A stretch of DNA of 45,897 nt. Origin: a virus. This document shows, one piece after another, positions 5,103 to 45,897 of the stretch. The DNA lies in the IMG/VR virus record IMGVR_UViG_3300033144_007607, positions 1 through 45,897 of that record; one strand, 5' to 3'. How positions within the stretch are numbered: position 1 is the first letter of the stretch; every line of letters begins with the position of its first letter. The notes under the pieces are model-generated. The model worked only from the letters and a program-made list of their open reading frames with translations. It was not told the origin of the DNA and made no database searches. The translations under genes were made by a program, and so were the position numbers.

Positions 5103-5103
5103 A

Positions 5104-7229: not shown

Positions 7230-10139
7230 GTGGACGATCAAAGAATAGGTAGATTACCAACACCTGAAGAAGATCCAAGAGATACAATAGAACCATCAAC
7301 TGAAAGAGTTCAAAGATATGCAGAAGATTCAATAGATACAATAGAATCATCAACTGAAGAAGTCGTGCCAGCAATGGAAGGAGCAAGATATGCAGAAGAT
7401 CTAAGAGATACAATAGAACCACCAACTGAAAGAGTTCCAAGATATTCAGAAGATCTAAGAGTTGAAGCAGCTCCAGGAGGTGAAAGAGCTCCAAGAGCAG
7501 AAGATACAATGGATATAGGAGAACCAGATACAATGCCTGATGATGTAGATGATGATGATAAAGATGTAAATGATTATGATAAAGAACCAAAAGTAAACTC
7601 AGTACAGCAAGAAATTAGAATTAACAATCAATTTGCCAGCATTCTTTACTCAGATTATGAAGGGCCTATGGATGGAGAATCAGTTCCTAAAATAAGACAG
7701 AGGGTTGTTCCATCAGGTGAATATTTAGAAAGAATGGTTCAATCAATTAGTTCAACTGATGCTCCTTCAGTTCTGCCAATGTATTGCAGATATAAAGAAA
7801 CATTGGGTAGTCATACCATTTATGTATTGGAAGAACCTCCAGCTTTTAGAACAATCTGTCTAGAGCTTAGTTTAAAAGGCGAGATAGAGAATTTAAAACA
7901 AAGTGGAAAACTTAAAGAGTATGGATATGAAAATTTTGAAAAAGAAAACAAGCACCCATATATGATAACTGTTGCAGTACCTTTCACAATCTTTATCTTA
8001 ATGGTATACCCACCGGAAAATAGAGTAGTAGAAGGATGTCTTTTCTTTCGTACTCAACCACTAACTGGATTAGGAGACTATCTACTTAAAACTCCATTCC
8101 CAAACATAAGCGATGGTCAATATGTATGCTGGGGGGATAAAGTCGGAAATAGCCACCGATCAGAAATTGAAGCTGTAGATCAAGCTAGATCAGCATGGTG
8201 GACAACAAAATTTAATGTAGACTATCTCTATAACTATAATGCATATCAAAATATCCCTGGAGTGTCTAATTTTCTAACCTGGCAATATCTTTCTAAACAA
8301 GATCCTATGTTTATATATAAGGTTGATTGGCTTAAACATGACAACACTCTAAAAGAACAAATACATCTTATGGGTGACAGAAATCGTCGCAGTGGTATTT
8401 TATTTGGATATGACAAAATGTTTAATTTATTTAATACCCCAGCTAAAGTTGGAAAATCTATAGAAGTAGAAAAGGGGTATTTTAGAGAAATGTTCTATGA
8501 CATCAGTAATGGTTTTATGCATGGTACACATCAAATTAACGTGGGAGACTCCTTTAAATATAAGGGGGATGAATCAGCTTTTATATGTTCTTTTGCTGGG
8601 TATGACTCAGGATATGTTCAATATAGTCTATTATCATATAAAGGTAAAGAATTTTTGTTCAAACTAACTCCAAAATCTAGAAAATACATTACAGACAAAA
8701 TTATAGAAGAGAGGTATCTTCCAGAAGTTGTAACTCCTGCTGGTATTACTTTAAAAGCCGAACAAATTCTTTGTCTGGATGGCCCTTTTAATTCAAAATC
8801 CTATAAACGAGTAGGTTATATAAGAGCTGCAATTGATGGAAAACAAGAAGTAAGTATCGGAGGCGAATTCTATCTTGTAGAAAGTTTAACAGAAAAATAT
8901 GAAATTGTAGATATATCAAAACCAACATATTATGACATACCACTGAAAAAAGGACAAAACTATATTTTTGATCGAAGTATGAGTGGAAGATCTAGAATTT
9001 ATAATACAGTAATATTTGATAAAGTCGAAGTTTCCAGAAATGGATCTCTATTATTTCAATTTAATGATCCTGAAAATCGTAGCGGGCATATCTCTATAGA
9101 TCCATCTATAGTTAATCCTCGTGGGAGTCAAATTTTTCTAGAGGAAGAACTTATACCAATGCCAAAAGTTTTTATGTCTGGAAGAAAAATTTTCTCTGTT
9201 AAAGACAGGAACTCAGGAAGGGTTATTGATTCATTTTCAAGAAATAACTGTAGTTATATTCCAAGAAATTCAAGGATGGTAAGTCCTACTATGGAAATGC
9301 TACTGGAGGAATGCTTAAAGGATGATACATTTAGTATCACATCAGGTAGTCATACTGAAACCTTTAAAATTGGGGATAAAGTTGTTGTAGTAGATTCATT
9401 GAATCCAATCAATACTCTTAATGTTAAAACCATAGAGGGATTCAATACAAATACTAGTGAGTCTACTATACGTTTCATATTATCTGATAAGCAAGGAACA
9501 ACGTATAATATTCTTTATGCAACAATTGGTTCGCCTTCCAAAATCAATACTGGAAAAATCAGAAAAATAACTAACTTCTTCAATGGTGTTTCTTCTGGAA
9601 GTAAAATAGTGGCCAAAGTTAGCGGCATTCCAGTTTTTCCAAAGAAGGATGCTAATATAATCGTTGGATTTCTTATTGATACTGGAGGAGATGATCCTCT
9701 TGTTCTATGCTCAAATGGATGTACAATATGGTTTAGTGAAATGATGGAAAAATTCGATATAATAACAATGAAAGATATAAGATGGAAAACTCTTCAACAC
9801 GCTCCTTTAGATATGAGTAAGTTAAAAATACAACCAGGTGATATTGTTAATGGAACTAAGTATTATAAAAATACCATGGGATATATAATAAGCAGAAATC
9901 TTCATAATAGAGGATTGAAAGCTATTTATTTAGACTATTTTACATCAAATGAATTTGTAACTGTTGATCAAAATTTCATGAAAGATTTAGTATTCGACTC
10001 TATTCCTAATCCAAGAATATCTTCAACTGTTCAATCAGATATAGGTGTTACTCAAGCAATACCAAACTTTCATGGATTATATATTAGAACATCAACAGAA
10101 ATGTATCTGCTAAATGACAACCCCAGGAGGTTCATTTAA
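7230..10139 (+). CDS. large E2-like (PRTRC-B/Prok-E2 type) protein, 969 aa
   Basis: Probable ubiquitin-conjugating-like component. In the middle, a hydrophobic strand block (ITVAVPFTIFILMVYPP) leads to LLKTPFPNISDG and then YVCWG with Cys300, followed by a Trp-rich segment (SAWWTTKF). This P-N-x-x-D-G-x-V-C-x-G layout is like the predicted E2-fold PRTRC protein B family, whose Cys is the proposed thioester carrier. The N-terminus (18-77) holds three degenerate DTIE...RY.ED repeats followed by an acidic DDVDDDDKD stretch. The C-terminal 500 residues look beta-rich and repetitive (GDKVVVVDSL, PGDIVNG), unlike known short family members. The start is GTG after GAGGAG. The next genes encode JAB, E1 and Ubl proteins, which supports the call. 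The family match is from memory of motifs, so moderately sure. Confidence 0.6.
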   Translation: MDDQRIGRLPTPEEDPRDTIEPSTERVQRYAEDSIDTIESSTEEVVPAMEGARYAEDLRDTIEPPTERVPRYSEDLRVEAAPGGERAPRAEDTMDIGEPDTMPDDVDDDDKDVNDYDKEPKVNSVQQEIRINNQFASILYSDYEGPMDGESVPKIRQRVVPSGEYLERMVQSISSTDAPSVLPMYCRYKETLGSHTIYVLEEPPAFRTICLELSLKGEIENLKQSGKLKEYGYENFEKENKHPYMITVAVPFTIFILMVYPPENRVVEGCLFFRTQPLTGLGDYLLKTPFPNISDGQYVCWGDKVGNSHRSEIEAVDQARSAWWTTKFNVDYLYNYNAYQNIPGVSNFLTWQYLSKQDPMFIYKVDWLKHDNTLKEQIHLMGDRNRRSGILFGYDKMFNLFNTPAKVGKSIEVEKGYFREMFYDISNGFMHGTHQINVGDSFKYKGDESAFICSFAGYDSGYVQYSLLSYKGKEFLFKLTPKSRKYITDKIIEERYLPEVVTPAGITLKAEQILCLDGPFNSKSYKRVGYIRAAIDGKQEVSIGGEFYLVESLTEKYEIVDISKPTYYDIPLKKGQNYIFDRSMSGRSRIYNTVIFDKVEVSRNGSLLFQFNDPENRSGHISIDPSIVNPRGSQIFLEEELIPMPKVFMSGRKIFSVKDRNSGRVIDSFSRNNCSYIPRNSRMVSPTMEMLLEECLKDDTFSITSGSHTETFKIGDKVVVVDSLNPINTLNVKTIEGFNTNTSESTIRFILSDKQGTTYNILYATIGSPSKINTGKIRKITNFFNGVSSGSKIVAKVSGIPVFPKKDANIIVGFLIDTGGDDPLVLCSNGCTIWFSEMMEKFDIITMKDIRWKTLQHAPLDMSKLKIQPGDIVNGTKYYKNTMGYIISRNLHNRGLKAIYLDYFTSNEFVTVDQNFMKDLVFDSIPNPRISSTVQSDIGVTQAIPNFHGLYIRTSTEMYLLNDNPRRFI
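7281..7460 (+). repeat. three degenerate in-frame repeats (18-24 codons)
   Basis: Codons 18-35, 36-59 and 60-77 of the large E2-like gene each start DTIE[P/S] and run to YAED/YSED. The DNA repeats too (gatacaatagaa, tcaactgaaag, gatatgcagaagat recur). This looks like a low-complexity, variable linker rather than a folded domain, and it also creates a long spurious open frame on the other strand. Confidence 0.75.
10125..10130 (+). promoter_or_regulatory. AGGAGG ribosome binding site deciding the JAB start
   Basis: A perfect AGGAGG inside the end of the preceding gene lies 10 nt before ATG 10141. A more upstream in-frame ATG at 10114 lies before this site and has no comparable motif, so 10141 is the likelier start. 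Confidence 0.7.
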
Positions 10140-10140
10140 A

Positions 10141-11628
10141 ATGTTTAAAGTGTTTGTGAACGATGGAAGTGAAAAATTACCTACAGACGATATAATGTAT
10201 ATTGTCGCTAAGGATGGAATATTTTTAAAGAAAAAATTGGGAGTTATGGAAAGCATTGCACCGGTTAAGAACATCTCTATTTTAAAAGAAATAGAAACAA
10301 TGGCTAGGATGCACATTACTAAAATCCCAACACCGATGATAGCTAAAACCCTTGAATTTTTCAGAACTGTTAATACAGATATTAAAGGATCTGAAGCTAT
10401 TGTTCTTAACTACTATAATGAAGAAAATGGAAAACATAAAATAGAGGCGCCATTTCAAAAAGTTAGTGGAGCAGCTCTAGATTATACTAAACCAGCATCA
10501 CCAGAAGGATGGACTATGATAGGAACAATTCATAGTCATAACACTATGTCTGCATGGCATTCAAGTATTGACGATGCTGATGAAAAACATTTTGATGGTC
10601 TTCATATAACAATCGGAAATGTTGATGAAGAATATGCAAGTATATCAGCATCAATCGTTTCAAATGGAACTCGTTTTATGGTTGACCCACGTGATTACAT
10701 AGATGGAATAAGGCTTGTCGTAGATATTGATGAAATAGAAAAAAGACCATATGGAAATACTTGGAAGTGGGATTCAAAACTAAAAAAATCAATAAAAGTC
10801 GAATCCACATATACATACAGTGTAAGAAAATATGATAAACGATATGCAGTTGATGCTACTGATAAACAAAAAACATTTAATAAAAAATGGATGAAAAAAG
10901 TAGAATATTCAACTCCAACATACAAATATGGGTATGGATATTGGGGTGGATACGGTGGCGGATACGGTAGAACTAGTGGTGCATATACTAGGAGTGGTAC
11001 ACAACCTAGTGGATGGAATGGATCATTTGATCCAGGTGTTTGGGCACAATGGAAAAAAGATCAAGAGAAAAAGACCGAAGAGAAAAAATCTAAAGAGGTC
11101 GTGAATACATTCACCGGTACTGTTGAAGTTATAGAAGAACCAGATGTGAACCCCTGTGAAGAATGTGCATTTAGAGATGCTAAATTAGAATGGATGTTTG
11201 ATCAGATGCTCGAAGAAGAATATGATGGAAAAGAATATTGGGAATGTGTAGGATGTCAGTTAACTTTCTGTATAGATGAGAGTGGAGAAGGAGAAGCGAT
11301 TTGCCCAGAATGTCATAGCGATGACTATGTAGTTGAATCGTGCAAACAAGATTTTGAGAAAGAATCAGAAACCTACAAATGTAGTGCATGTGGAAGCGAA
11401 ACTAAAACAGAACATTTTAACGAAGGCTTGTGCCCATTCTGTGGTTCTTCAATAGATGGTGATGAAACAGAAGAAACAAGAAAATTAACTGAAGATGAAC
11501 AACATTTTCTGGAAGTAGCTAATGAAGAAGTAGAAAGAATTCCAATTCCAGGAACTAATGCAATTCCTTTACCAAAACCCAAAAAACCAAAAGGTTTATT
11601 TCAAAGATTACTTAATAGGGGTCAATAA
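10141..11628 (+). CDS. JAB/JAMM metallopeptidase with C-terminal zinc ribbons (495 aa)
   Basis: Predicted deubiquitinase-like isopeptidase. The JAMM zinc motif is complete: HSH at 131-133, then seven residues, then S141 and D144 (HxH-x7-SxxD). A Gly/Tyr/Trp-rich low-complexity linker follows (around 265-300). The last third has several CxxC pairs: CEECAF, CVGCQLTFC with CPEC, and CSACGS with CPFCG, giving probably two or three zinc ribbons that could bind a partner or nucleic acid. JAB enzymes in prokaryotic ubiquitin-like operons process or remove the modifier. The gene sits between the E2-like gene and an E1-like gene. The start was chosen by the AGGAGG at 10125. Confidence 0.88.
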   Translation: MFKVFVNDGSEKLPTDDIMYIVAKDGIFLKKKLGVMESIAPVKNISILKEIETMARMHITKIPTPMIAKTLEFFRTVNTDIKGSEAIVLNYYNEENGKHKIEAPFQKVSGAALDYTKPASPEGWTMIGTIHSHNTMSAWHSSIDDADEKHFDGLHITIGNVDEEYASISASIVSNGTRFMVDPRDYIDGIRLVVDIDEIEKRPYGNTWKWDSKLKKSIKVESTYTYSVRKYDKRYAVDATDKQKTFNKKWMKKVEYSTPTYKYGYGYWGGYGGGYGRTSGAYTRSGTQPSGWNGSFDPGVWAQWKKDQEKKTEEKKSKEVVNTFTGTVEVIEEPDVNPCEECAFRDAKLEWMFDQMLEEEYDGKEYWECVGCQLTFCIDESGEGEAICPECHSDDYVVESCKQDFEKESETYKCSACGSETKTEHFNEGLCPFCGSSIDGDETEETRKLTEDEQHFLEVANEEVERIPIPGTNAIPLPKPKKPKGLFQRLLNRGQ

Positions 11629-12324
11629 ATGGATATTGCAATAATCGGTCTTGGAGGAATCGGTTCTATTTTATGTGGAAGATTAGGAAGGTTTTTAAAC
11701 TATTCAAGAGAACTCAGAACCGCGAATGTTGCGTTAGTCGATGGAGATGAATACGAAGATAAAAACTATGAAAGACAAGAATTTAGTTCAATCGGGAACA
11801 AAGCGAAATCTAAATCAATTGATCTTAAAATGAAATACCCCGCGCTTAATGTAACTGCCCATGAAGTATTTGTAAATGACACTACAGCAGCTGATACTAT
11901 TAAAGAGGGCAGTGTAGTACTATTGTGTGTAGATAATCATAAAACCAGAAAAATCGTATCGAATTACTGTCAACAATTACAAGATGTTACTCTCATTTCT
12001 GGCGGGAATGATTTCATAGATGGGAATGTTCAAATTTATGTCAGGAAAGGCGGCAAAGATTTAACACCAGACTTATGTTCATACCATCCTGAAATTGCCA
12101 ACCCGGACGATAAGTTACCCGAAGAAATGAGTTGCGAAGAGTTAGCAAACTCAAGTCCCCAATTATATTTTGCAAACCTGGGGGCTGCAACTTTGATGTG
12201 TTGGGCTTTTTACAACTTTGTTGTAACTGGCCAGGCGTTAGAAGGAGACGGACCATATATATCAGATGCATATTTTGATATAACAACAATGACTATCGTC
12301 ACTTCAGCGCGTGTAGTAAAATGA
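11629..12324 (+). CDS. E1/ThiF-like adenylyltransferase with a candidate catalytic Cys (231 aa)
   Basis: Rossmann-type E1/ThiF fold that should adenylate the C-terminus of a ubiquitin-like protein. The sequence shows GLGGIGS at 7-13 (nucleotide loop), VDGDEYEDKNYERQ (D38/D40, N46, R49), the lysine region GNKAK near 57-60, and VDNHKTR at 101-107. Further on, LCSYHPEI and then EMSCEELANSSP align with the ThiF/MoeB region around the catalytic Cys, so Cys169 is the candidate. The distal CxxC pair of ThiF is absent. At 231 aa it is shorter than MoeB. It lies directly downstream of JAB and upstream of the Ubl gene. Its GC content is somewhat above that of most neighbours. Confidence 0.88.
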   Translation: MDIAIIGLGGIGSILCGRLGRFLNYSRELRTANVALVDGDEYEDKNYERQEFSSIGNKAKSKSIDLKMKYPALNVTAHEVFVNDTTAADTIKEGSVVLLCVDNHKTRKIVSNYCQQLQDVTLISGGNDFIDGNVQIYVRKGGKDLTPDLCSYHPEIANPDDKLPEEMSCEELANSSPQLYFANLGAATLMCWAFYNFVVTGQALEGDGPYISDAYFDITTMTIVTSARVVK

Positions 12325-12353
12325 TTTGCAAATCAAAATTCAAGGAGTAACAA

Positions 12354-12833
12354 ATGTCTTACAAAAGAGAAACATTAGAAGCAAAAACCTCAAAGGATCT
12401 TAAAAGAATGTGTGCGCATCGCCTGGGTCTTCCCGGGATGTGGAAGAAAACCAAAAGTGAAGTGATTGATGCGATTATGGGAAAATCTGCCAATGCACCC
12501 GGAAAGAAAACAAGACGGGCCGCAGCAATCGAATCGGATACCTCAGCCCCATTGACAGCAATCGGCGGGTCATTCCAAAGCACCATCACAAAACCGGGAG
12601 AAGACTTCGGTTTTAAAACCTCCACCGCGGTTCAAGTAACATGCGGCGCCAATACAGGAAAATTCCCTGTTTCGGGGCGCAAAGTAACCGAAGTTGGTGA
12701 GTTACTTCGTGAGGTTTTTAACGTATCCAAACTTTCTACAGGTCTGGTAAACGGGAAAGCAGTTGATGGCGACTATGTCATCAAAGATGGAGATGTACTG
12801 GAGTTCCTAAAACCCGCAGGACGTAAGGGTTAA
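12354..12833 (+). CDS. ubiquitin-like modifier with SAP-like N-terminus (159 aa)
   Basis: Residues about 92-159 read as a beta-grasp (MoaD/ThiS/ubiquitin-like) domain: two opening strands (VQVTCG, FPVSG), a helix (VGELLREVF), VNGKAVDGDYVIKDGDVLEFL, and an exposed tail ending AGRKG with the terminal Gly exactly at the stop. Residues about 13-43 resemble a SAP/Rho-N helix-extension-helix, often a nucleic-acid binder, followed by a disordered Lys/Arg/Ala/Pro linker. It follows AAGGAG at a good distance. E1-like genes on both sides and the JAB upstream identify it as the likely modifier. Base composition is strikingly higher in GC: 34 of 60 bases in 12541-12600 versus 19 of 60 in 13141-13200. Confidence 0.78.
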   Translation: MSYKRETLEAKTSKDLKRMCAHRLGLPGMWKKTKSEVIDAIMGKSANAPGKKTRRAAAIESDTSAPLTAIGGSFQSTITKPGEDFGFKTSTAVQVTCGANTGKFPVSGRKVTEVGELLREVFNVSKLSTGLVNGKAVDGDYVIKDGDVLEFLKPAGRKG

Positions 12834-12841
12834 AAGGATCT

Positions 12842-12877
12842 AATATTTTGGGGGCTCAACTTGAGTCCCCAAATATT
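12842..12877 (+). terminator. hairpin after the Ubl gene (partial terminator or mRNA stabiliser)
   Basis: GGGGGCTCA at 12850-12858 pairs with TGAGTCCCC at 12862-12870 (one G-T pair, 3-nt loop). The stem extends downward through an AT-rich base (12842-12849 with 12871-12877, one bulged T). Only TTTT follows, before the next ribosome binding site, so it may be a leaky terminator, or protect the Ubl message 3' end and let that gene be expressed more than the downstream ones. Confidence 0.65.
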
Positions 12878-12890
12878 TTAGGAGTTCTAT

Positions 12891-13133
12891 ATGGCATATG
12901 ACCAAAATAAAGATAAAGTAATGAAAGTTCTCACATATGAATATGAGGGAGGTTCTTTATTATTTGCAATAATTTCGTATAATGGAGGAGAACCTAAACT
13001 GCAAATATCAAGAACATATGATAAAAAAAATGACGAAATAGGTTATGCTAAAATTGGAAGACTAACTAAAGAAGAAACGCAGTTCTTTCTAGATCATTCT
13101 GGAGAACTAATTGATAATATGAAAGGAGACTAA
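12891..13133 (+). CDS. small protein in the Ubl cluster, possibly PC4/YdbC-like (80 aa)
   Basis: Not firmly recognised. The middle (SYNGGEPKLQISRTYDKKNDEIGYAKIGRL) resembles the strand pattern of PC4/YdbC single-strand-binding coactivators, W/Y-N-G-x-P-K-x-x-I-R followed by G-x-x-L-T-x-E-E, and a helix (LTKEETQFFLDHSGELIDNM) completes it. If so, it would bind single-stranded nucleic acid. The evidence is only a pattern impression. It has AGGAG before the ATG and ends 3 bp before the second E1-like gene. Confidence 0.65.
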   Translation: MAYDQNKDKVMKVLTYEYEGGSLLFAIISYNGGEPKLQISRTYDKKNDEIGYAKIGRLTKEETQFFLDHSGELIDNMKGD

Positions 13134-13136
13134 TGT

Positions 13137-13997
13137 GTGAATTATAAAAGTATTGCTATAATTGGAATAGGAACACTAGGTGGATTTGTAACAGAAACCC
13201 TTTCTACTTTAGAAACCACAGAATATCTTACTCTTATCGACCATGATATAGTTGAAACAGAGAATTTAAAAAATACAGTATATCGACAAATTGATATTGG
13301 TCTTCCAAAGACAGAAGCTTTAGCCGATATAATATCTTCAAGGCATCCATCTATATCTATCAAAAGATTTACTGAAAAATTTATTGAAGGGAAAACTTTC
13401 TTCCCAACATGTGATTTAGTTTTGGACTGTAGAAACTATACCTACGATAGACTAGGGATGGTTGATGTTAGATTATATATCTCATCTCGATATTTGATAG
13501 TCGACTGTAGGAAAAAAGTTATTTATAAACTAAAACGAAAGGGAGAATATCTAACTACCTTAACAAAAGATGATCTTCGTAGTGCTGCTTTTATTGTATC
13601 TATGCTCATTAATGGAAATACAATTACATTATTGATGAAAGATCAAGCTGTACAGAGATATGAGTTGGATTGTTTTAAAAAAAGAGACGATAGTTGCTAT
13701 GATATACTATATGAAAATCATCTAGGTGGAGATAGATTTATAAATCTAGCTGATAAAATAATTCCAATGATTGAAATGAATAAAAAATCAGATCTAAATG
13801 TTATAGTTGGAAATAGAGAATCCCCAGCTTTACAAACCCTTATTCCAAAACAAACATTAAGGTCAAGCGGAGATGTTGCTTTGAATCTAGCCGCTCTAAC
13901 AAACTTACAAAGCGAGTTTAACAATTACATAATTGCTATTTATCAAGATAATAGAAAGATGACAGTTGAATTGATACCTGAAACTGGAGCTGCTTAA
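13137..13997 (+). CDS. second E1/ThiF-like protein, apparently lacking catalytic Cys (286 aa)
   Basis: The N-terminal half has the E1 nucleotide fold: GIGTLGG at 10-16, LIDHDIVETENL with D35, D37 and N43, YRQ with R50, GLPKTEAL with K58, and DLVLDCRNYTYDR as the next motif. The second half does not resemble the ThiF/MoeB Cys region, and no CxxC zinc pairs are present. It may be an inactive or regulatory partner of the first E1, as in heterodimeric E1s, or act on a different modifier; both are inference. The start is GTG. Composition is AT-rich like the phage average, unlike the first E1 and Ubl. Confidence 0.75.
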   Translation: MNYKSIAIIGIGTLGGFVTETLSTLETTEYLTLIDHDIVETENLKNTVYRQIDIGLPKTEALADIISSRHPSISIKRFTEKFIEGKTFFPTCDLVLDCRNYTYDRLGMVDVRLYISSRYLIVDCRKKVIYKLKRKGEYLTTLTKDDLRSAAFIVSMLINGNTITLLMKDQAVQRYELDCFKKRDDSCYDILYENHLGGDRFINLADKIIPMIEMNKKSDLNVIVGNRESPALQTLIPKQTLRSSGDVALNLAALTNLQSEFNNYIIAIYQDNRKMTVELIPETGAA

Positions 13998-14771: not shown

Positions 14772-17432
14772 ATGCCAAAAATTTTAAACTATGATACATT
14801 TTGTGAAGACTTAGAGGAAATAACCTCTCTAAAAACAATGAGCAAGAAAAAGTTTCATCCAAAAGGATTATTCTCTGAACAAATATTCGGTCCTATCAGA
14901 AATTATACCTGTCAATGTGGAACCTATTATGGAGTATCAAAATCAGGAGGAACATGTAAAGAATGTGGGGTTGATATTATAAATAGCGACTCCAGAAGAA
15001 AGCGTTTTGCTAAAATAACATTACCAATTCCTGTAGTCAATCCTTTGTTATTTGACCTTCTAGTTGAACTTGGAGGAAGTGGATTAAAAAAAGCTATGTA
15101 TGATTTAATGGAAAAGGATAAAAGTATTCTTTATAAAGATGGTGACGATCATATTGTAGTTTTAAATTCAGAACACGTACCAGAAGGATGTAGAACATGG
15201 GAAAAAACAGAAGCAATTTATGAACTTATCAAAAATATTGCAGATGAAGCTGAAGATATTCCAGAGTGGAAAATAGTAAAAGATAACATTGATAGTCTTT
15301 TAATAACCAAAGTTATAGTTCTACCCCCTGATCTTAGACCAACTTCAAAAAGGTCCGGAGAAGCAAAACAGTTAATGGATAAAATTAATAGATATTACAT
15401 TCAAATATTAACTAAAAAGGAAGCAATGCGAGAAACTATTATAGATATAAATAGAGATAAAACTCTATACTATACTTACTTTAGACAATTGCAGAAAGAT
15501 GTTAATGAGCTTTATCATCGAGTTTTAGAAAAGATGGCCAAAAAAGAAGGGTTGATTAGAGGAAATATATTAGGAAAAAGAATTGACTTTTCAGGAAGAG
15601 CCGTTATTACACCTGATCCAACTTTAAATCTTGATGAATGTCGTCTTCCATATTTGATGCTTTTAGAACTATACAAACTCCCAATAGCAAAAAGAATTAT
15701 TGAATTGGGTAAATTTAAACTGTTAAATAAAGCAATAAATTTTGTAGATAAATGCATTGATATAAATGACCCTTCTTTATTTCAAGTATGTAAAAGTATT
15801 ATTGAAAATGAAATATGCATTTTAAACAGACAACCATCTCTGCATAGACTAGGAATGTTAGGTTTCAAAATTAAATTAACTCTAGATAAAGTAATAAAAA
15901 TTCATCCATTATCATGTCCTCCATTTAATGCAGATTTTGATGGAGATCAAATGGCAGTTTATATTCCTATAACCAATGAAGCCAAAGACGAAATAATTGA
16001 GAAAATTTTAATAACAAAAAACTTAAGCAGTCCAGCGAACGAATCATTAACTACTACTCCAAGCCAAGATATTATCTTGGGAATATATTTTCTAACAGCA
16101 GAAAAATTTGAAGGAATAGATAGTCAAAAAATATTCAACGAATGCTTACCAGATGATTTTCCAGAAGTAACGGGAGTAGTTGATAACCAAAAACTTTTAG
16201 AAATTTTAAATAAGATAAAAAATACATACTCAAGCGAAATTACGAAGAATGTTTTAGATAATATAAAAAGAATAGGGTTTAAATACTCAACATTATACGG
16301 TTGTACTCTTTCACTAGATGATTGTAATATGGAAGGATCTACAGAATTAAAAGAAAAGATATATTCTACTGATAACATAAGAGAACAATTAATAAGGTAT
16401 TCAGACCCCGAAATTAACAATGCTATGAAAGAGCAATTCAATTATTCGTATATGATTGAATCGGGAGCAAGAGGTAGTTGGGATCAAGTAAAACAACTTG
16501 TATTAACAAGAGGATTTATTTCAAACTTTGATGGGGAGATTTTACCATTACCAATCAAACACAGCTTAATTGAAGGGTTAGACCAAGAAGAGTTTTTCTA
16601 TTCAACTTACGGTTGTAGGAAAGGTCTTTTAGATGTTGCTCTAAACACAGGAACATCTGGTTATCTTTCAAGAAAATTAATATTCACTTGTGCAAACTTA
16701 CAAATTGATACTGAGTTAGTAGATTGTGGAACAACAGATTCCCTAGATGTTGAAGTTGATAGCAAAATAAAAGCAAGGATGTTAATTAATAGATATCACT
16801 TTGTAGATGGTTCTCTACAAAAAATAACTGAAGATAATTGCCTTGAATTATTGAATAAAAACATTTCTCTAAGAAGTCCAATATTATGTACATCTCCACA
16901 AATCTGTCATACTTGTTATGGTGATCTTCATAAAAGTATTAATAGCAGGTTTATTGGAATTTTGGCAGCTCAAACTCTTGGAGAAAGAGGAACCCAATTA
17001 GTTTTAAGAACATTTCATACATCTGGATCTGCTATGATTCAAGGAGCTGAAGATAACACCTCAATGAAACAGAAAGATATTATCGGTGATCTTGCAGCAG
17101 TAGCAGGTTTATTACATAAATTTAAGAATAAAACATATACAGATATAGTTAAAGAATTATTTGATGTGTATGCTAAGAATATTTATCATGTCCATTTCGA
17201 GTGTGTAGTAGCTCAATTAATGTGGGATGGATACAATAAATGGAGATTACTTTCGGACAGAAATACAATAACCCCAACATTTCATAGCATTCAATCAGTT
17301 CCAAATAAGGAGAGCTGGATTCTTGCTATGGCATTTTCAAACCCAAGACGCTCTATTCTTCAAGGAATATTATACGAAGGGCGGTATTCTGGTGTTATGG
17401 ACAAAATACTAAAAGGAGAGCAAATATCATGA
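14772..17432 (+). CDS. RNA polymerase beta-prime-like subunit, compact and unsplit (886 aa)
   Basis: Catalytic subunit of a bacterial-type multisubunit RNA polymerase. The N-terminal zinc site is intact (C47, C49, C62, C65). ILGKRIDFSGRAVI precedes the active site NADFDGDQMA at 386-395, whose Asp residues (388, 390, 392) bind the catalytic Mg. The bridge-helix/trigger-loop region (GARGSWDQVKQL, STYGCRKGLLDVALNTGTSGYLSRKL), the second zinc region (CTSPQICHTC) and QTLGERGTQLVLRTFH follow in the normal order. E. coli beta-prime is about 1,400 aa, so many lineage insertions are absent. Unlike phiKZ-type phages the chain is not split. The beta gene is 0.6 kb downstream. Alpha and sigma genes are not in the window. 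Confidence 0.96.
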   Translation: MPKILNYDTFCEDLEEITSLKTMSKKKFHPKGLFSEQIFGPIRNYTCQCGTYYGVSKSGGTCKECGVDIINSDSRRKRFAKITLPIPVVNPLLFDLLVELGGSGLKKAMYDLMEKDKSILYKDGDDHIVVLNSEHVPEGCRTWEKTEAIYELIKNIADEAEDIPEWKIVKDNIDSLLITKVIVLPPDLRPTSKRSGEAKQLMDKINRYYIQILTKKEAMRETIIDINRDKTLYYTYFRQLQKDVNELYHRVLEKMAKKEGLIRGNILGKRIDFSGRAVITPDPTLNLDECRLPYLMLLELYKLPIAKRIIELGKFKLLNKAINFVDKCIDINDPSLFQVCKSIIENEICILNRQPSLHRLGMLGFKIKLTLDKVIKIHPLSCPPFNADFDGDQMAVYIPITNEAKDEIIEKILITKNLSSPANESLTTTPSQDIILGIYFLTAEKFEGIDSQKIFNECLPDDFPEVTGVVDNQKLLEILNKIKNTYSSEITKNVLDNIKRIGFKYSTLYGCTLSLDDCNMEGSTELKEKIYSTDNIREQLIRYSDPEINNAMKEQFNYSYMIESGARGSWDQVKQLVLTRGFISNFDGEILPLPIKHSLIEGLDQEEFFYSTYGCRKGLLDVALNTGTSGYLSRKLIFTCANLQIDTELVDCGTTDSLDVEVDSKIKARMLINRYHFVDGSLQKITEDNCLELLNKNISLRSPILCTSPQICHTCYGDLHKSINSRFIGILAAQTLGERGTQLVLRTFHTSGSAMIQGAEDNTSMKQKDIIGDLAAVAGLLHKFKNKTYTDIVKELFDVYAKNIYHVHFECVVAQLMWDGYNKWRLLSDRNTITPTFHSIQSVPNKESWILAMAFSNPRRSILQGILYEGRYSGVMDKILKGEQIS

Positions 17433-17647
17433 GCGAAGATATAGATAAGGAAATTTTTGATATTATATTTAATGAGAAACATAGTAATGAATGGGATCTC
17501 ACAGAACCAACATATGATCTTTCAAATATAGGAGGATTGGATATAACAATCTATCCGAAAGATGCCAAAACTATAGAAGAAGTTGAATCATTTGAAGTCA
17601 AAGAGGATGTCCACGGTTCGATATTTTGGTCATGTAAGAGGTCATAG
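17429..17647 (+). CDS. small acidic protein, tandem paralog A (72 aa)
   Basis: Overlaps the beta-prime stop by 4 bp (ATGA). The C-terminal half (LDITIYPKDAKTIEEVESFEVKED) matches the next gene product (FDIEPEDAESINEVKSFKI), sharing I-x-P-x-D-A-x-x-I-x-E-V-x-S-F, so the two are a tandem pair. Not recognised otherwise. The pair sits between the two large RNAP subunits, which makes a polymerase-related role conceivable but unproven. Confidence 0.65.
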   Translation: MSEDIDKEIFDIIFNEKHSNEWDLTEPTYDLSNIGGLDITIYPKDAKTIEEVESFEVKEDVHGSIFWSCKRS

Positions 17648-17648
17648 T

Positions 17649-17858
17649 ATGAGCGATCTCATAGGAGAATTACTAGATATATACTATAGCACTGCTGACG
17701 GTTGGAGTAAACAAGATGTCTTTAGTAAAGAAAAACATCTATATCCTGTTGTATTCGATATAGAACCAGAAGATGCAGAATCTATAAATGAAGTTAAATC
17801 ATTTAAAATTACATATGAAATTTCCAAAGCTAAAGAACTTCTTTTTGAGAGGAAATAG
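17649..17858 (+). CDS. small acidic protein, tandem paralog B (69 aa)
   Basis: Paralog of the preceding product (shared P-x-D-A-x-x-I-x-E-V-x-S-F near residues 38-52). I chose ATG 17649, which follows directly on the preceding TAG and has AGAGG upstream; a frame extending back to ATG 17583 would only add shadow sequence inside the previous gene. Function unknown. Confidence 0.65.
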   Translation: MSDLIGELLDIYYSTADGWSKQDVFSKEKHLYPVVFDIEPEDAESINEVKSFKITYEISKAKELLFERK

Positions 17859-17859
17859 T

Positions 17860-18051
17860 ATGAGAGACCTAAAAAGAATTGATAGACTTTTGGGATTAAT
17901 CGGAAATGTCTGGAAACAAAATCCAGACCTCCGATTATTACAACTATTAGAAAATGCTATTCCGGATCAAAAGTGGTATTATGTTGAAGATGATGAGTTA
18001 GAAGATTATATAAAAAGCTATGCTAAATGGGCTATGGAGGAAGAAGATTGA
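17860..18051 (+). CDS. small helical protein (63 aa)
   Basis: Begins MRDLKRIDRLLGLIGNVWKQ, then NPDLRLLQLLENA and an acidic end (VEDDELEDYI). This layout recalls a widespread class of roughly 60-90 aa bacterial proteins with the core PDLxLxQLL (the YihD/DUF1040 type among them); the match is from memory and weak. GAGAGGA precedes ATG 17860. The stop overlaps the proposed TTG start of the beta subunit. Confidence 0.65.
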   Translation: MRDLKRIDRLLGLIGNVWKQNPDLRLLQLLENAIPDQKWYYVEDDELEDYIKSYAKWAMEEED

Positions 18052-21047
18052 AAATTATAAACCCAAACTTTAAACTACAAGAGGAGAATATCTTCTCAAT
18101 AAGGCAGAAAGATTATGAACAGATTTTACCATTAGTAGAAAAAATAGTTAAACCCGTTGAAGAAATCGGGTTCAGTATAAATGAAATAAGTTTAAAAGAC
18201 TCTAGATTTTCATCAGGAGAACTGTTGAAAACAATAAAACAAACCCTAGTAATTAAATTACAAAAGGGTTCGTCAAACATTGACTTGAGTCTTTTTATTC
18301 CAAAGTTAATAGATGATAACTATATCATTATAAATGGAAGAAGGAAAGTTCCTTTATTTCAATTATTCGATATTCCAATTGTTACCAGAGGGGAAAATAT
18401 TAAATTAAGAACCAATGTTGCAACTCTAATGATTTTTAAAGATAAGCAACCACCATATGTTCAATTAAGTTTCTTAGGAAAAAAAGTCTCCCTCGCTTTA
18501 TTTCTTCTAGCGTATTATGGAATGGAGGAAATCATCAAAAGATTTGAATTAGAAGATCTTGAGATACAAGAAGGTAGTGATGTATTATATGAGAATCTTA
18601 TTGAAGACTTGAAAGTTGCTTGCGATGAATCTATCGGATATACGCAAGACGATTTTATATTAGAACTTGGAAGAATATATTCTAAATTCAATGCTAGATC
18701 AAAAGGAGAGGATATTATATATGCCCTTGATCTAATTCCAAAAGTTGACATTATAACAGCAAAATTTCTAACACAACCATCAATATTAGAAGAATTAGTA
18801 GCAACAATTCAAAATGACTTTATTGATGATACAATGTTTACAAATAAAAGAGTTAGATGTTGGGAATATATGGTAGTATCAAAAATATCTAAAACGATTT
18901 TTGATTTATGTTTTTCAAATAGAACAGCACGACAACCCAAGTTCAATATAAGTTCAACACAAATTTTGTCAGAGTGTAATATATCCGATATAGTCCAGTT
19001 CGACTTTTCAATAAATCCAATTGAAGAGTTAACCAAATTAACAAGAATTAGTTTATTAGGTCCAGGAGGTTTCAAGAGAGAAAATATTCCGAAGCACTTA
19101 AGGGATATATATCCTTCAATGTTTGGAAGAGTATGCCCAGTTGATACTCCAGATAGAGATAACTGTGGGGTATTACAAAATCTTTTACCAAATGTTAAGA
19201 TAGATGAGGACTTAAGATTTAAAAGTGAATCTCTTGATAAATCACCAGTTTCAATTCCAGTTTCAATGACACCGTTCCTACAAAATGATGATCAAACAAG
19301 ACTTCAAATGGCATCATCACAAATGAGACAAGCTATAATGTTAAGCGAATTTGATACTCCTCTAATTAGCTCTGGATGTGAAAATCTTTATACAGATCAA
19401 ACTCAATTTATTAAAAGAGCACAAAAAGATGGAGAAGTTATATACATTGATAAACACTATATCATTGTAGCTTATAATGATAACGAAATTGAAATCTTTG
19501 ATGTTAATTACAGAAAAATATATGTTGAACATTTAGATTTTATGAAAATATATGTTAATGTTGGAGATAAATTCAAAACTGGAGATATCTTAGCTGAAAG
19601 TAATTTCTGCAAAGATGGAAATATAAATATTGGACGAAACTTGTTAACTGGCGTTATGATTCATTATGGAAATAACTATGAAGATGGAATTGTTATTTCT
19701 GATCGTTTGCAAAAAGAAAAAATATTTACTTCAGTTCACTATAAAGATTTATCATTTAATTTGACTCCCGATAAAGTTTTATTATCATTAGAGAAAGATA
19801 CATACAGACCCCTTCCAAATGAATACGATACAATTCAAACTGGCAACCCGTATGCTATCATTAAGAAATTAAATTCAGATGATTTCTATTCAGTTTTTTC
19901 AGATAGTTTAACATTAGAAGCAAAGAAAAAGTTTTTAATATCAGAAGTAAATGTCTTTGCTAATAATTGGAACACAGAGGTACCAGAATTTCAAGACTGG
20001 ATTGAAAAAAGAATCGCCAAACAGCAGGAGAAAGAAAATAATCTCCAAAAAGTTATTAAAGATCATTTACCAAAAGAGCAAGCAGCAACATTCATTAGAG
20101 AAAATAGTTTAGATAAATTTTCATATGTTGGAAAATATAAAGAGAAAAGAGAACGACTTAACGGAGTTGATATTCACATAGTTGGAATCCATTTTAGACC
20201 AATTCAAGTTGGAGATAAAATTGCAAATCGTCATGGGAATAAAGGAGTAATTTCTCAAATTATTGCTCATGAAGAAATGCCCAAACTTGATGACGGAAGA
20301 CATCTAGACATCTGTATAAATCCCCTTGGAATAATATCTAGAATGAATGTTGGACAAATTTATGAGCTTCATTTAGCAATGTCTCTTACAGACTTAAAAA
20401 ATAATATGGAGCAAATGCTAATAGATAAAGCTGACCAAAATATCATAAAAGATTACCTTAAAATGTATATAGAAACCATAGACGTAACAAACGACAAATG
20501 GTTTTATAATCAGTTTATACAACAAATACCAGAAACAATTGATAAAAACTTTATAGATAAAATAACTTTAATACAACCTCCATTTGAATCTTCTAGATTT
20601 GAAGAAATTAAAAAAGCTCTTGAATATACTGGAACATCATATAAGTACAATATATATGATCCAGTTTCAAAAGTCTATATAATAAACAAAATCGCTGCTG
20701 GGTACATATACTTTTTCAGAATGGTTCATATGGCTGAAGAAAAATTGGCTGCAAGAGGGATAGGAGCATATGCCAGAAGAACTCTACAACCTCTTGGAGG
20801 AAGAAAAAATAAAGGTGGACAAAGATGTGGAGAAATGGAAACAGCATGCTTGATAGGGCATGATGCTCCAAAAAATTTATTCGAGTTTTTCACCACAAAG
20901 TCTGATTGTATAGATTTAAAGAATAACTATATAAGAAACTTTATTGAAAGTGATTTTGTAGAAGACAAACAGAAACTAGATACAGTCCCGGAATCAGTTA
21001 AACTTTTAAATTCATATTTAACGATTATAGGAGTGGATATAAAATGA
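18048..21047 (+). CDS. RNA polymerase beta-like subunit, compact and unsplit (999 aa from TTG)
   Basis: Partner of the beta-prime-like subunit. Conserved blocks in order: LLGPGGFKRENIPKHLRDI with GRVCPVDTPDRDNCG (fork loop 2 region), a GDKIANRHGNKGV block at 722-734, a CINPLGIISRMNVGQI block, and QPLGGRKNKGGQR at about 914 with GEMETACL near the C-terminus. E. coli beta is about 1,340 aa. GGAGG at 18036-18040 lies 7 nt before TTG 18048, which overlaps the previous stop; ATG 18027 in the same frame has no ribosome binding site, so TTG is preferred. With its own core polymerase the phage can transcribe at least some genes independently of host beta/beta-prime. Confidence 0.95.
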   Translation: MKIINPNFKLQEENIFSIRQKDYEQILPLVEKIVKPVEEIGFSINEISLKDSRFSSGELLKTIKQTLVIKLQKGSSNIDLSLFIPKLIDDNYIIINGRRKVPLFQLFDIPIVTRGENIKLRTNVATLMIFKDKQPPYVQLSFLGKKVSLALFLLAYYGMEEIIKRFELEDLEIQEGSDVLYENLIEDLKVACDESIGYTQDDFILELGRIYSKFNARSKGEDIIYALDLIPKVDIITAKFLTQPSILEELVATIQNDFIDDTMFTNKRVRCWEYMVVSKISKTIFDLCFSNRTARQPKFNISSTQILSECNISDIVQFDFSINPIEELTKLTRISLLGPGGFKRENIPKHLRDIYPSMFGRVCPVDTPDRDNCGVLQNLLPNVKIDEDLRFKSESLDKSPVSIPVSMTPFLQNDDQTRLQMASSQMRQAIMLSEFDTPLISSGCENLYTDQTQFIKRAQKDGEVIYIDKHYIIVAYNDNEIEIFDVNYRKIYVEHLDFMKIYVNVGDKFKTGDILAESNFCKDGNINIGRNLLTGVMIHYGNNYEDGIVISDRLQKEKIFTSVHYKDLSFNLTPDKVLLSLEKDTYRPLPNEYDTIQTGNPYAIIKKLNSDDFYSVFSDSLTLEAKKKFLISEVNVFANNWNTEVPEFQDWIEKRIAKQQEKENNLQKVIKDHLPKEQAATFIRENSLDKFSYVGKYKEKRERLNGVDIHIVGIHFRPIQVGDKIANRHGNKGVISQIIAHEEMPKLDDGRHLDICINPLGIISRMNVGQIYELHLAMSLTDLKNNMEQMLIDKADQNIIKDYLKMYIETIDVTNDKWFYNQFIQQIPETIDKNFIDKITLIQPPFESSRFEEIKKALEYTGTSYKYNIYDPVSKVYIINKIAAGYIYFFRMVHMAEEKLAARGIGAYARRTLQPLGGRKNKGGQRCGEMETACLIGHDAPKNLFEFFTTKSDCIDLKNNYIRNFIESDFVEDKQKLDTVPESVKLLNSYLTIIGVDIK

Positions 21048-21268: not shown

Positions 21269-22141
21269 ATGGAAAAACTGCCCGATATTCAAGAAACAAA
21301 GCCTAACATTCCAATACCTATTATGCAAGTCGGAGTCGAGAATGTAGAAGTTCCTTTTACACTAGAATCTAAATATGGGGGATTCAATCAAATGGTTGCT
21401 AATGTCTCCATACGAACTAGTTTAGACTCACAAACAAAAGGAATTTCTATGTCAAGACTTCTATTAACTCTTAAACCTTATCTAGACTTACCATTAAAAA
21501 GTAAGTTAATAGAAGAAATATTAAAAGAGATAATAAAAAATATTGGATGTAATACTGCATTTATGAAATTTGAGTTCCGTCTTCCTATCAAAAGAAAATC
21601 TATTGTTTCAGATAATGAATTTCCAATTTATTACAAATGTAGATTTGAAGGACAATTACATAGGGTACCAACTACCGACCTGACAAAAGAAGAGAAAGTA
21701 TTAAAAGATTACTTCACATTCTATGAAGGAGTTATAATTCAATATGCATCTTACTGCCCATGTTCTGCTGAATTATGTGAAGCTGCTGGAGTAGGTTTTC
21801 CACACAACCAAAGATCATTTGCCAACATTTTAGTCCAAGGAGATGGTTCATATTATCTTTGGTTAGAAGACATTATTGAACAAGTAGAAAATCGTTTAAC
21901 AACTCTTCCATACCCTATAATAAAAAGAATTGATGAACAAGCAATTGGAAAACTTGGAGCAAAACACCCAATGTTTGTTGAAGATGCAATCAGAGAAATT
22001 TCTTATACTTTGAACTCAATACCTGGTGTAGTTGATTGGATTGTAAAGTGTATTCATGAAGAATCAATTCATACATCCGAAGCTATTGCAATTAATTATA
22101 GAGGCATCCAAGGAGGATTCGATGGAAGGAGATTTATATGA
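21269..22141 (+). CDS. folE2: GTP cyclohydrolase FolE2 (type IB)
   Basis: Catalyses opening of GTP to dihydroneopterin triphosphate, the first step of folate and of 7-deazaguanine (queuosine-type) synthesis. The active-site block is clear: YCPCSAELCE with Cys163 and Cys165, then GFPHNQRS. An early VPxTLESKYGGFNQMVANV strand and a GISMSRL segment are also typical. The length, 290 aa, is normal for FolE2. FolE2 works with various metals, unlike zinc-dependent FolE. In phages such genes usually feed 7-deazaguanine DNA modification, but QueD, QueE, QueC and a transglycosylase are not in this window, so the pathway end is open. AGGAG precedes the ATG; the end overlaps the next gene by 4 bp. Confidence 0.9.
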   Translation: MEKLPDIQETKPNIPIPIMQVGVENVEVPFTLESKYGGFNQMVANVSIRTSLDSQTKGISMSRLLLTLKPYLDLPLKSKLIEEILKEIIKNIGCNTAFMKFEFRLPIKRKSIVSDNEFPIYYKCRFEGQLHRVPTTDLTKEEKVLKDYFTFYEGVIIQYASYCPCSAELCEAAGVGFPHNQRSFANILVQGDGSYYLWLEDIIEQVENRLTTLPYPIIKRIDEQAIGKLGAKHPMFVEDAIREISYTLNSIPGVVDWIVKCIHEESIHTSEAIAINYRGIQGGFDGRRFI

Positions 22142-44037: not shown

Positions 44038-44199
44038 ATGAGTCATCCATGTGACCAATGTATTGTTAGACCGATATGTCAGATTGAAAGAGAGGGAGAA
44101 TGCCCGAATTTAGATAGATGGATGAATCTAAGTCTGTTAGAAAGATGGGTTGAACTACATCCAGAAATATTAGATTATATGAAGGGTTCTGGAGTATAA
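44038..44199 (+). CDS. four-Cys mini-protein (53 aa)
   Basis: Begins MSHPCDQCIVRPICQIEREGEC: Cys at 5, 8, 14 and 22, the same C-x2-C-x5-C-x7-9-C pattern as in the 1059 product (which has x9). Four Cys in 20 residues suggest a zinc or Fe-S site. The rest is a short amphipathic helix (LSLLERWVELHPEILDYM). AGAGGG precedes the ATG. It is 2 bp before the membrane-protein gene, which parallels the fused arrangement at 1059-1523. No database function can be given; ferredoxin-like electron donation to the nearby radical SAM enzyme is a conjecture. Confidence 0.78.
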   Translation: MSHPCDQCIVRPICQIEREGECPNLDRWMNLSLLERWVELHPEILDYMKGSGV

Positions 44200-44201
44200 G
44201 A

Positions 44202-44606
44202 ATGTCAAAGTCAAGTAGCGGTATCAGTTGGTTTACAATCCTTATTGCGGTGGGTGTTCTTTTCGGCATATTTGGAGGTGATGATGATGATGAAGAAGAG
44301 AAGTCTTCAAAAACAGAAGTTGTTATTGAGGAAGAATTTAAAAGTACAGTAAAGTCTGACTTGAAAAAAATTCTTAATGAAGTCAAAGAGGGTGTGATGG
44401 ATATTAAAGAGGAAATCACACCTGTAGTGAAGCAACTTGGAAAAGACGCAAAAGAAGCGATAGTGGCATCTAAATCTGAAGTAGAAAAGGAAGAAGATGA
44501 GATCCAAAATCCGGAGGAGATTAAACCTGAAGAAGAAAAAGAAGAAGAGCCACCAGAGAAAGAAGAAGAACCAGATGACGGAAAAATAAAATACACACCT
44601 CTATAA
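44202..44606 (+). CDS. membrane-anchored acidic protein ending KYTPL (134 aa)
   Basis: Short N-terminus, then one hydrophobic segment (FTILIAVGVLFGIFGG at about 11-26), followed by DDDDEEE and a long Glu/Lys-rich, Pro-containing tail (EEKEEEPPEKEEEPDD) that ends KIKYTPL. No signal peptidase site is clear. The prepilin-like protein at 1314 has the same plan: anchor, charged tail, and KYKPL end. The terminal K-Y-x-P-L is therefore a shared C-terminal tag on two proteins in two related cassettes. A spanin role is possible, but no lysin or holin is nearby. Confidence 0.72.
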   Translation: MSKSSSGISWFTILIAVGVLFGIFGGDDDDEEEKSSKTEVVIEEEFKSTVKSDLKKILNEVKEGVMDIKEEITPVVKQLGKDAKEAIVASKSEVEKEEDEIQNPEEIKPEEEKEEEPPEKEEEPDDGKIKYTPL

Positions 44607-44616
44607 AGGATAAACA

Positions 44617-45636
44617 ATGAAACATTTTAGAAAAGTCTTAGTGAGTAAAGACTATACCTTAATCTTTGATTCTGAGCTTGCATTAGAAATCTTAGAGGGA
44701 AATAATGGAAAACCCGATCCATTTTATCTACATCTTCCATCAGCAATAGATGTAGGTATTATGGGTCATTGTATAAATTCTTGTCATATTTGTTATCAGG
44801 GGCATATAAAAGAAGCAAATATGAAGCTTGATGATTTTAAATTGATAATTGATCAAACTCATACTCATACAAATCAGGTAGCGCTTGGAGGGAGAGGAGA
44901 TCCAAATCTACATGAAAATTTTAAAGAAATACTTGAGTATGCAAGAAATAACAATGTAGTACCCAACTATACAACAAGTGGTAATGGACTGACTGATGAG
45001 CAGATTGAAATTAGTAAACTTTGTGGGGCAGTTGCAGTTAGCGACTACGGCCAACCATATACATATGATGCAATAAAAAGATTTATGGATGCAGGAATTA
45101 AAACCAACATTCATATTATCTTTAATAAGTTCAATTATGAAAAATGTATAAAACTGCTATCAGGATTTGATCCATGGGAACCAACACATTCAAAAGTTAA
45201 AAAAGAAACCGACGTTGATATTAACAGGATCAATGCTATTATCTTTCTACTCTATAAAGCTGTTGGAGAAGCAAAAGATAAACCAGAGCTGTTTCCTACA
45301 AAATATCAAATGAATACCTTTATAGATCGGGTACTTAACTCAGAATGTAAATTTAAAGTAGGGATTGATAGTTGCTTAACAAATCATATTATAAAATCAG
45401 GTGTTGATCTAAGCGAAGAGTTTTTTATGACAACTGATTCATGTGAAGCTGCTAGGATGGTAGCTTATATAAGCCCTTCTCTTCAACTGGTACCTTGTAG
45501 TTTTGCTGACAATGATGTTTATGGAGTTAAAATTAAGAAAAAAAGTATTCAGAATATATGGAATAAATCTAAAAAATTCAAATCATTTCGGTCTATGTTA
45601 AGAAAAAAACCATGTGATTGCCCATTAGGGGTTTAA
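44617..45636 (+). CDS. radical SAM enzyme with SPASM-like C-terminus, second copy (339 aa)
   Basis: Cluster motif HCINSCHICYQG with C52, C56 and C59, then GGRGDP in the place of GGEP. The C-terminal third has the SPASM-like pattern IDSC, TDSCEAARMVAYISPSLQLVPCSF and KKPCDCPLG, which would ligate auxiliary Fe-S clusters. Such enzymes typically modify peptides. An N-terminal 45 residues before the cluster is unlike the 5472 enzyme, so the two are not close copies. GGATAAAC precedes the ATG. It is followed in 27 bp by a DFITNSSS protein gene. Confidence 0.82.
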   Translation: MKHFRKVLVSKDYTLIFDSELALEILEGNNGKPDPFYLHLPSAIDVGIMGHCINSCHICYQGHIKEANMKLDDFKLIIDQTHTHTNQVALGGRGDPNLHENFKEILEYARNNNVVPNYTTSGNGLTDEQIEISKLCGAVAVSDYGQPYTYDAIKRFMDAGIKTNIHIIFNKFNYEKCIKLLSGFDPWEPTHSKVKKETDVDINRINAIIFLLYKAVGEAKDKPELFPTKYQMNTFIDRVLNSECKFKVGIDSCLTNHIIKSGVDLSEEFFMTTDSCEAARMVAYISPSLQLVPCSFADNDVYGVKIKKKSIQNIWNKSKKFKSFRSMLRKKPCDCPLGV

Positions 45637-45663
45637 TGTCAACAAAGGAGAAAAATAAGTAGT

Positions 45664-45897
45664 ATGAAAATTAGGGTAGACTTTATCACAAATTCAAGTT
45701 CAAGTGGGTTTATTGTAGCGTGGCCATCACATATTAAAACCATAGCTCAGGTAGAAAAATTCATACCGTGGAAAAGTAGAGCAAAAATTGTTTTCAGAGA
45801 TTCTATAAATCAGAGAGGTAGAAAAGTTACGAAGAGTCCAGCAGTAATTAAAGTATTACAAGAGGCAATGGAGAATGGCTCCTTTAGTTACTATGAT
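45664..45897 (+). CDS. DFITNSSS-leader protein, copy 3 (3' end outside window)
   Basis: Begins MKIRVDFITNSSSSGF, matching the 773 and 4734 starts, then a distinct body (VAWPSHIKTIAQVEKFIPW) that continues past the window end. It is directly downstream of the second radical SAM gene. AAAGGAG lies 14 nt before the ATG, a long spacing. The serines at the conserved positions use AAT-TCA-AGT-TCA here, versus AAT-AGT-TCT-TCA and AAT-AGC-TCA-TCT in the other two genes, so the match is at protein level, not recent DNA copying. Confidence 0.8.
   Translation, partial: MKIRVDFITNSSSSGFIVAWPSHIKTIAQVEKFIPWKSRAKIVFRDSINQRGRKVTKSPAVIKVLQEAMENGSFSYYD

Follow-up and report, generated by a model that had tools for sequence, protein, structure and literature searches.

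The right end of a viral DNA record (IMG/VR IMGVR_UViG_3300033144_007607, 45,897 bases, analysed over its full length and hereafter called the window) raises the question of which of its neighbouring genes act together, and by what means. The initial annotation had placed four ORFs at 44038-45897, and all four are there on the plus strand, the last interrupted by the contig end. It had also regarded them as a second cassette of four gene types recurring at the left end of the window, at 773-1523 and 4734-6506. The core of the locus is in fact composed of two genes, the radical SAM/SPASM enzyme at 44617 and the tag protein at 45664, where tag denotes an N-terminal stretch of 16 codons. The features at both ends are the following:

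773-1066, plus strand: second tag protein, cluster 3, with a DFITNSSS N-terminus
1050-1523: ORF combining a four-Cys motif at its N-terminus with a prepilin-like hydrophobic segment (PF07963, 4e-8) and a KYKPL end
1532-4737: SbcD/SbcC-like pair, between the tag proteins at 773 and 4734
4734-5102, plus strand: third tag protein, cluster 2, with a DFITNSSS N-terminus
5104-5472, plus strand: paralogue of the 4734 protein that lacks the tag; the two are 37% identical over 108 aa
5472-6506, plus strand: radical SAM protein, family B, adjoining SbcC and weakly tied to the tag
44038-44199, plus strand: four-Cys mini-protein, 53 aa, outside the conserved core
44202-44606, plus strand: transmembrane/acidic protein with a C-terminal KYTPL, 134 aa, outside the conserved core
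44617-45636, plus strand: radical SAM/SPASM enzyme, family A, PHROG_7293, 339 aa, CxxxCxxC at residues 52-59; putative tag reader or modifier
45664-45897, plus strand: tag protein, cluster 0, PHROG_7397, N-terminal 78 aa of an ORF interrupted by the contig end
45664-45711, plus strand: N-terminal tag, 16 codons, common to at least 457 proteins in at least 103 clusters and conserved as amino acids

The radical SAM/SPASM enzyme

The 44617 enzyme belongs to the radical SAM superfamily, as indicated by its CxxxCxxC motif, a Pfam match and fold matches. The Pfam Radical_SAM profile scores slightly below its gathering cut-off (E 1.3e-5; 25.9 bits against 29.5), and the SPASM profile PF13186 scores over its own (7.6e-5; 23.4 bits, cut-off 21.5). 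C52, C56 and C59 of the CxxxCxxC motif are invariant among 20 relatives, as are C276, C294 and C335 of the SPASM/twitch region among 51 relatives, and the enzyme thus carries the C-terminal SPASM/twitch region characteristic of radical SAM/SPASM peptide maturases. Its nearest PDB entries by sequence are 5v1q (6e-13), 6efn (4e-11) and 6c8v (8e-8), corresponding to SuiB, SkfB and PqqE. These peptide-modifying maturases are also its nearest folds, with 4k39 as a further fold match. The AF2 model (pLDDT 94.8) has three N-terminal strands and no helices ahead of the barrel. In NCBIfam, all maturase-family matches to the enzyme are sub-threshold.

Prokaryotic viperin (pVip) was considered and rejected, as matches remain below the curated family cut-off: the NCBIfam model (cut-off 180 bits) is not among the matches listed for family A and gives 44.9 bits for family B, and the PADLOC pVip match amounts to just 26.6 bits over 85 residues. 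As a separate observation, a phage radical SAM gene of 778 codons (locus L082, 3795-6131) has its radical SAM domain interrupted by an intein-like insert.

The N-terminal tag

The 45664 protein, whose first residues are MKIRVDFITNSSSS and whose N-terminus is given as MKIRVDFITNSSSSGF, belongs to a BLAST cluster of 61 members and matches PHROG_7397 over residues 1-34 (4.8e-4). The tag consensus is M-K-[IV]-[KR]-x-[DG]-F-[VI]-[TS]-N-S-S-S-x-x-[FY], or in short MKIRxDFVTNSSSSSF. Scans with the pattern ATG-AAR-ATH...F-[VI]-T-N-S-S-S retrieved at least 117 stretches from IMG/VR and at least 118 from GTDB genomes. Over all loci, at least 457 distinct tag proteins were found, ranging in length from roughly 80 to more than 600 aa; 450 of them were comparable once the tag had been removed, and BLAST placed these in at least 103 clusters, some of which may be remote homologues left unjoined. 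Tag genes may form tandem arrays of up to seven, and reading of the ORFs reveals products alike in their first 16 residues and in little else. When cluster representatives are compared, 95% of the residues in the FVTNSSS segment are identical, a value for which the pattern scans themselves select. The N-terminal position of the tag is not merely a product of the search pattern, since among loci for which the enzyme was the sole search criterion 94 of the 102 tag matches fall in residues 1-12 and one beyond residue 45.

The tag is conserved as protein and not as DNA. Where cluster representatives have the same tag residue, the third base of the codon is also the same in 41% of cases, and AGY and TCN codons are about evenly represented (~50:50) at the three tag serines. 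Codon identity in the tag is 0.48 within a locus, 0.45 between loci and 0.45 by codon-usage expectation. Because the within-locus value is so near the other two, the tag is not explained by 5' ends having been copied recently within arrays, and that idea was set aside.

Mean family conservation is 0.93 for residues 1-16, the tag, versus 0.47 for the remainder. In the model of the tag protein from the nearest relative (locus L130), mean pLDDT is 93, but residues 1-10 fall to about 49 and are predicted to be disordered. A near-invariant N-terminus that is nevertheless predicted to be disordered would be the expected appearance of a recognition or modification site. For the folded domain of the same protein, Foldseek found no significant match in the PDB, and VIA-align matched a helical hairpin alone, with Z under 8. 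C-termini are also conserved within tag-protein clusters 0, 4, 10, 12, 16, 18 and 22; cluster 0 proteins end in His in 59 of 59 cases, and other conserved ends are CNHMG, GAGRxG, FPHL and DLSY. No description of the tag motif was found in the open-access papers searched.

Association of tag and enzyme in viruses and cells

The pair occurs in many large phages and in a number of bacterial and archaeal genomes. Tag and enzyme can each be used to look for the other. Among the viral loci selected by the tag (at least 117, many of them short), a radical SAM protein of family A, B or C is present in 76 of the 117 listed, always on the same strand. Conversely, 45 of 80 viral loci selected by the family A enzyme alone contain a tag protein, in every case downstream and on the same strand, and within 500 bp in 42. 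In the other 35 no tag protein lies nearby, and a search for tag genes farther away on their contigs, which are fragmentary, gave chance matches only. The tag-less exceptions that were read are mostly phages with an adjoining tail-sheath gene, and several have other small genes downstream, some encoding tag-less proteins that resemble the tag protein. Many of the family A loci read have a tail-sheath gene on the opposite strand close after the enzyme, and the small genes in between vary in the manner of a cargo slot.

Tag variants also follow enzyme subtypes. In viral loci, Arg4 of the tag occurs in 19 of 19 clusters with a type C enzyme versus 1 of 28 with A/B, and Ser14-Ser15 in 17 of 19 versus 3 of 28 (Fisher 5.8e-8, a value that overstates independence because shared phage ancestry is uncontrolled). 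The stronger point is that clusters 0, 2 and 3 occur both with type C and with A/B enzymes, and that their tag variant switches accordingly.

In bacteria and archaea, an enzyme homologue is present in 91 of 118 tag-selected loci (8 kb) among the matches listed. The enzyme was found in 6 of 293 Clostridia genomes, the seed included; the strict tag pattern matched 3 of these 6 versus 0 of the 287 without enzyme, and a tag protein stands beside the enzyme in 5 of the 6 when the loci are read. Among 296 Bacteroidia genomes the enzyme was found, at the threshold used, only in the seed genome, and the module is therefore rare and patchy in bacteria.

Sixteen loci have the order STAND NTPase, tag-less small protein, tag protein and enzyme, in organisms as diverse as Clostridia, Bacteroidales, Methanosarcina and Omnitrophota. 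An identical order was seen in three loci read on Agrobacterium, Rhodobacter and Rhizobium plasmids, which were retrieved by a search with the enzyme only; the plasmid-operon tag is MK[IL]KMDFVSNSSSTSF. The tag-less paralogue at 5104 in the window parallels the tag-less small protein of this operon. The operon NTPases match Avs2 profiles (up to 9e-32) as well as NACHT/STAND Pfam families, and their N-terminal domains vary (SMEK, DUF4062, trypsin-like, TIR), as the exchangeable effectors of Avs proteins do. Judged by its predicted domains, the operon is of the Avs type, with a STAND NTPase and a putatively exchangeable N-terminal effector domain. It differs from Avs STAND defence in adding three genes in fixed order, the tag protein and radical SAM enzyme among them, and is a candidate defence system. 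A profile HMM of the operon NTPases matched neither the ORFs of the window nor other viral loci. For the vWA-MoxR FtsH ternary conflict systems, Kaur et al. (2020; PMC7159879) proposed a radical SAM protein that modifies a peptide effector encoded by a separate gene. Those systems, compared here by their description, are built on vWA, MoxR and FtsH, and the parts of the description consulted mention no N-terminal NSSS tag.

Cultured phages also possess both components. In RB43-like T4-type phages the enzyme is represented by a distant homologue (PHROG_7293, 173 records), and about 20 kb from it lies a tag protein that belongs to the same cluster as the 45664 protein of the window (PHROG_7397) and starts MKIRSGFVSNSSSSSF. 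This pair resembles that of the window in that distant homologues of enzyme and tag protein occur together in the same genomes, and differs in the distance between the genes and in the tag sequence. The PHROG_7397 search, made with a full-length relative as query and E up to 10, gave 172 records that are mostly weak singly; nearly all belong to the RB43 group, which also has the enzyme. With the incomplete window tag protein (78 aa) as query, tblastn gave no match in phages. A second RB43-like tag protein lies about 4 kb from the first, and the two have their first 17 residues in common. Co-occurrence in this group partly reflects shared descent; still, the pair persists without adjacency. All three genes are present in Escherichia phage Lw1, first isolated as a contaminant in E. 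coli BL21(DE3) (PMC3861415); the enzyme there is gp161 (YP_008060683.1), and the tag proteins are gp116 (YP_008060639.1) and gp111 (YP_008060634.1). The listed function of PHROG_7293 and of PHROG_7397 is unknown.

Possible roles of the tag and its neighbours

We favour, as somewhat the likelier account, a two-component protein-modification module in which the enzyme acts on the N-terminal tag of unrelated small proteins. The radical SAM/SPASM enzyme at 44617 would recognise and bind the tag of the 45664 protein, and perhaps also that of the 773 and 4734 proteins, and would install a covalent modification at the tag or beside it. The chemistry may be side-chain oxidation or cross-linking within F-V-T-N-S-S-S. 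Modified proteins would serve in phage-host conflict, a role that we infer from the operon in which related enzymes and tag proteins are combined with an Avs2-like STAND NTPase.

SuiB/SuiA, SkfB/SkfA and PqqE/PqqA are similar to this module in their radical SAM core, their SPASM-type C-terminus and the location of the enzyme beside its putative substrate. They differ in that their substrate is one short precursor peptide, whereas here the candidates are folded proteins of at least 103 clusters, several per genome. The neighbours of the enzyme are also not short leader-core precursors of the RiPP kind, as their lengths run from about 80 aa to more than 600, and in the only one modelled all but the N-terminus is predicted to be folded. 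Another parallel is the anaerobic sulfatase-maturating enzyme (anSME), also of the radical SAM/SPASM type, whose substrates are full-size proteins modified at a short motif; it is represented by the fold match 4k39. The target of anSME is an internal motif in one protein family, versus an N-terminal tag on many families here.

Several points weigh against the modification module. Among them are the group of 35 in 80 enzyme-selected viral loci without a tag protein, the uncontrolled phage ancestry behind the subtype coupling and the partly shared descent of the pair in RB43-like phages. A further one comes from the enzyme model, in which the predicted absence of helices before the barrel is unlike SuiB, where a winged-helix domain binds the peptide.

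A wider proposal is that a tag written by radical SAM enzymes on about a hundred unrelated families constitutes a novel covalent mark, and that phages and STAND-NTPase immune operons use the same pair; we put this forward tentatively, as something that may well prove wrong. If it is true, phages and bacterial immune operons have in common a modification system whose single enzyme marks proteins of many unrelated kinds via an N-terminal tag. Two conserved T4-like phage families, PHROG_7293 and PHROG_7397, would then acquire a likely function, and the operon would become a candidate for Avs-like defence with a radical SAM enzyme among its parts. The tag could also be grafted onto other proteins for directed modification.

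Among the alternatives, the tag may be a recognition leader, as in RiPP precursors, with the modified part elsewhere, for instance at a conserved C-terminus. The nearest PDB enzymes do process leader-core precursors, and several clusters have conserved C-termini (the final His of cluster 0 being the clearest), but many clusters lack one, and in phages with several tag clusters a single enzyme would have to handle many different ends. The invariant T-N-S-S-S run also appears to exceed what recognition needs. We consider such a leader unlikely. A reaction at the tag or close to it is the more economical assumption, given that one enzyme type serves proteins of differing domains and C-termini.

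Alternatively, the tag may be a sorting or packaging signal, or a handle for another partner, with the radical SAM enzyme linked but independent. A short common N-terminus on unrelated proteins has the anatomy of a targeting signal, as exemplified by the capsid-targeting sequence of the internal proteins of T4, and in some loci one of the two parts is missing. However, bacterial, archaeal and plasmid operons contain the tag without phage structural genes, so that the tag proteins are unlikely to be of the T4 capsid-targeting type, and the tag is linked to one enzyme family, with coupled tag and enzyme subtypes. A sorting role is, for these reasons, a doubtful explanation, ranking just behind the leader.

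A complex of all four gene products, in which the four-Cys protein, the KYxPL membrane protein, the radical SAM enzyme and the DFITNSSS protein form one unit, is highly improbable. Four gene types can be listed at each end of the window, as the initial annotation had done, and the tag is indeed common to both ends, far beyond what chance would give, on three DFITNSSS proteins that otherwise fall in three BLAST-unrelated clusters. The remaining resemblances are slight: the four-Cys proteins have a 14-residue stretch with PCDxCI in common and nothing more, and the KYxPL likeness is a short match. The radical SAM proteins at 44617 and 5472 gave no BLASTP match to each other, have a profile comparison probability of 5% and form separate HMM families; by sequence, they are not detectably related beyond the superfamily. 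The left-end genes are thus no first copy of the cassette, the 5472 enzyme being of a different family, adjoining SbcC and often lacking a DFITNSSS neighbour. Nearly all of the 12 distinct four-Cys proteins found come from loci of the window's own phage clade, with a tag protein or radical SAM B as neighbour, and the KYxPL protein, searched for in other loci, was seen in the window alone. The closest relative of the 44617 locus (radical SAM 67% identical) has neither gene upstream of its enzyme. The locus census therefore contradicts the cassette as a unit. The annotation had proposed that its parts act together, and had named rare co-occurrence outside this genome as the refutation; for the radical SAM/DFITNSSS pair, joint action is strongly supported and co-occurrence extends to phages, bacteria and archaea, but neither holds for the quartet. 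Its remark that no named system has these components agrees with the literature searched, PADLOC, NCBIfam and PHROGs, where none is named.

Radical SAM B was also weighed as a second writer of the tag and is a weak candidate. Its best PDB relative is MoaA, its neighbourhood with SbcC is conserved throughout the phage clade, and a tag protein lies near it in 21 of 44 loci and is absent from the vicinity in 23. Its association with the tag may be synteny.

Finally, a DNA or RNA signal in the conserved 5' end, such as a translation start or recombination site, would suit a sequence that always begins with the start codon and precedes unrelated domains, but free synonymous positions, the even split of serine codon classes and a within-locus codon identity close to codon-usage expectation rule it out for practically any signal not blind to synonymous sites.

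Other genes of the window deserve mention. The region 10114-13997 encodes a ubiquitin-like set with a JAB-domain protein (PF14464), two ThiF/E1-like proteins (PF00899) and a ThiS-like small protein that ends ...GRKG and matches PF02597 below threshold. A phage multi-subunit RNA polymerase lies within 14772-21047, with beta-prime-like (14772-17432) and beta-like (18027-21047) subunits recognised by Pfam. At 21269-22141, the window encodes a GTP cyclohydrolase FolE2 (PF02649, 5e-58), which could feed deazapurine or folate synthesis.
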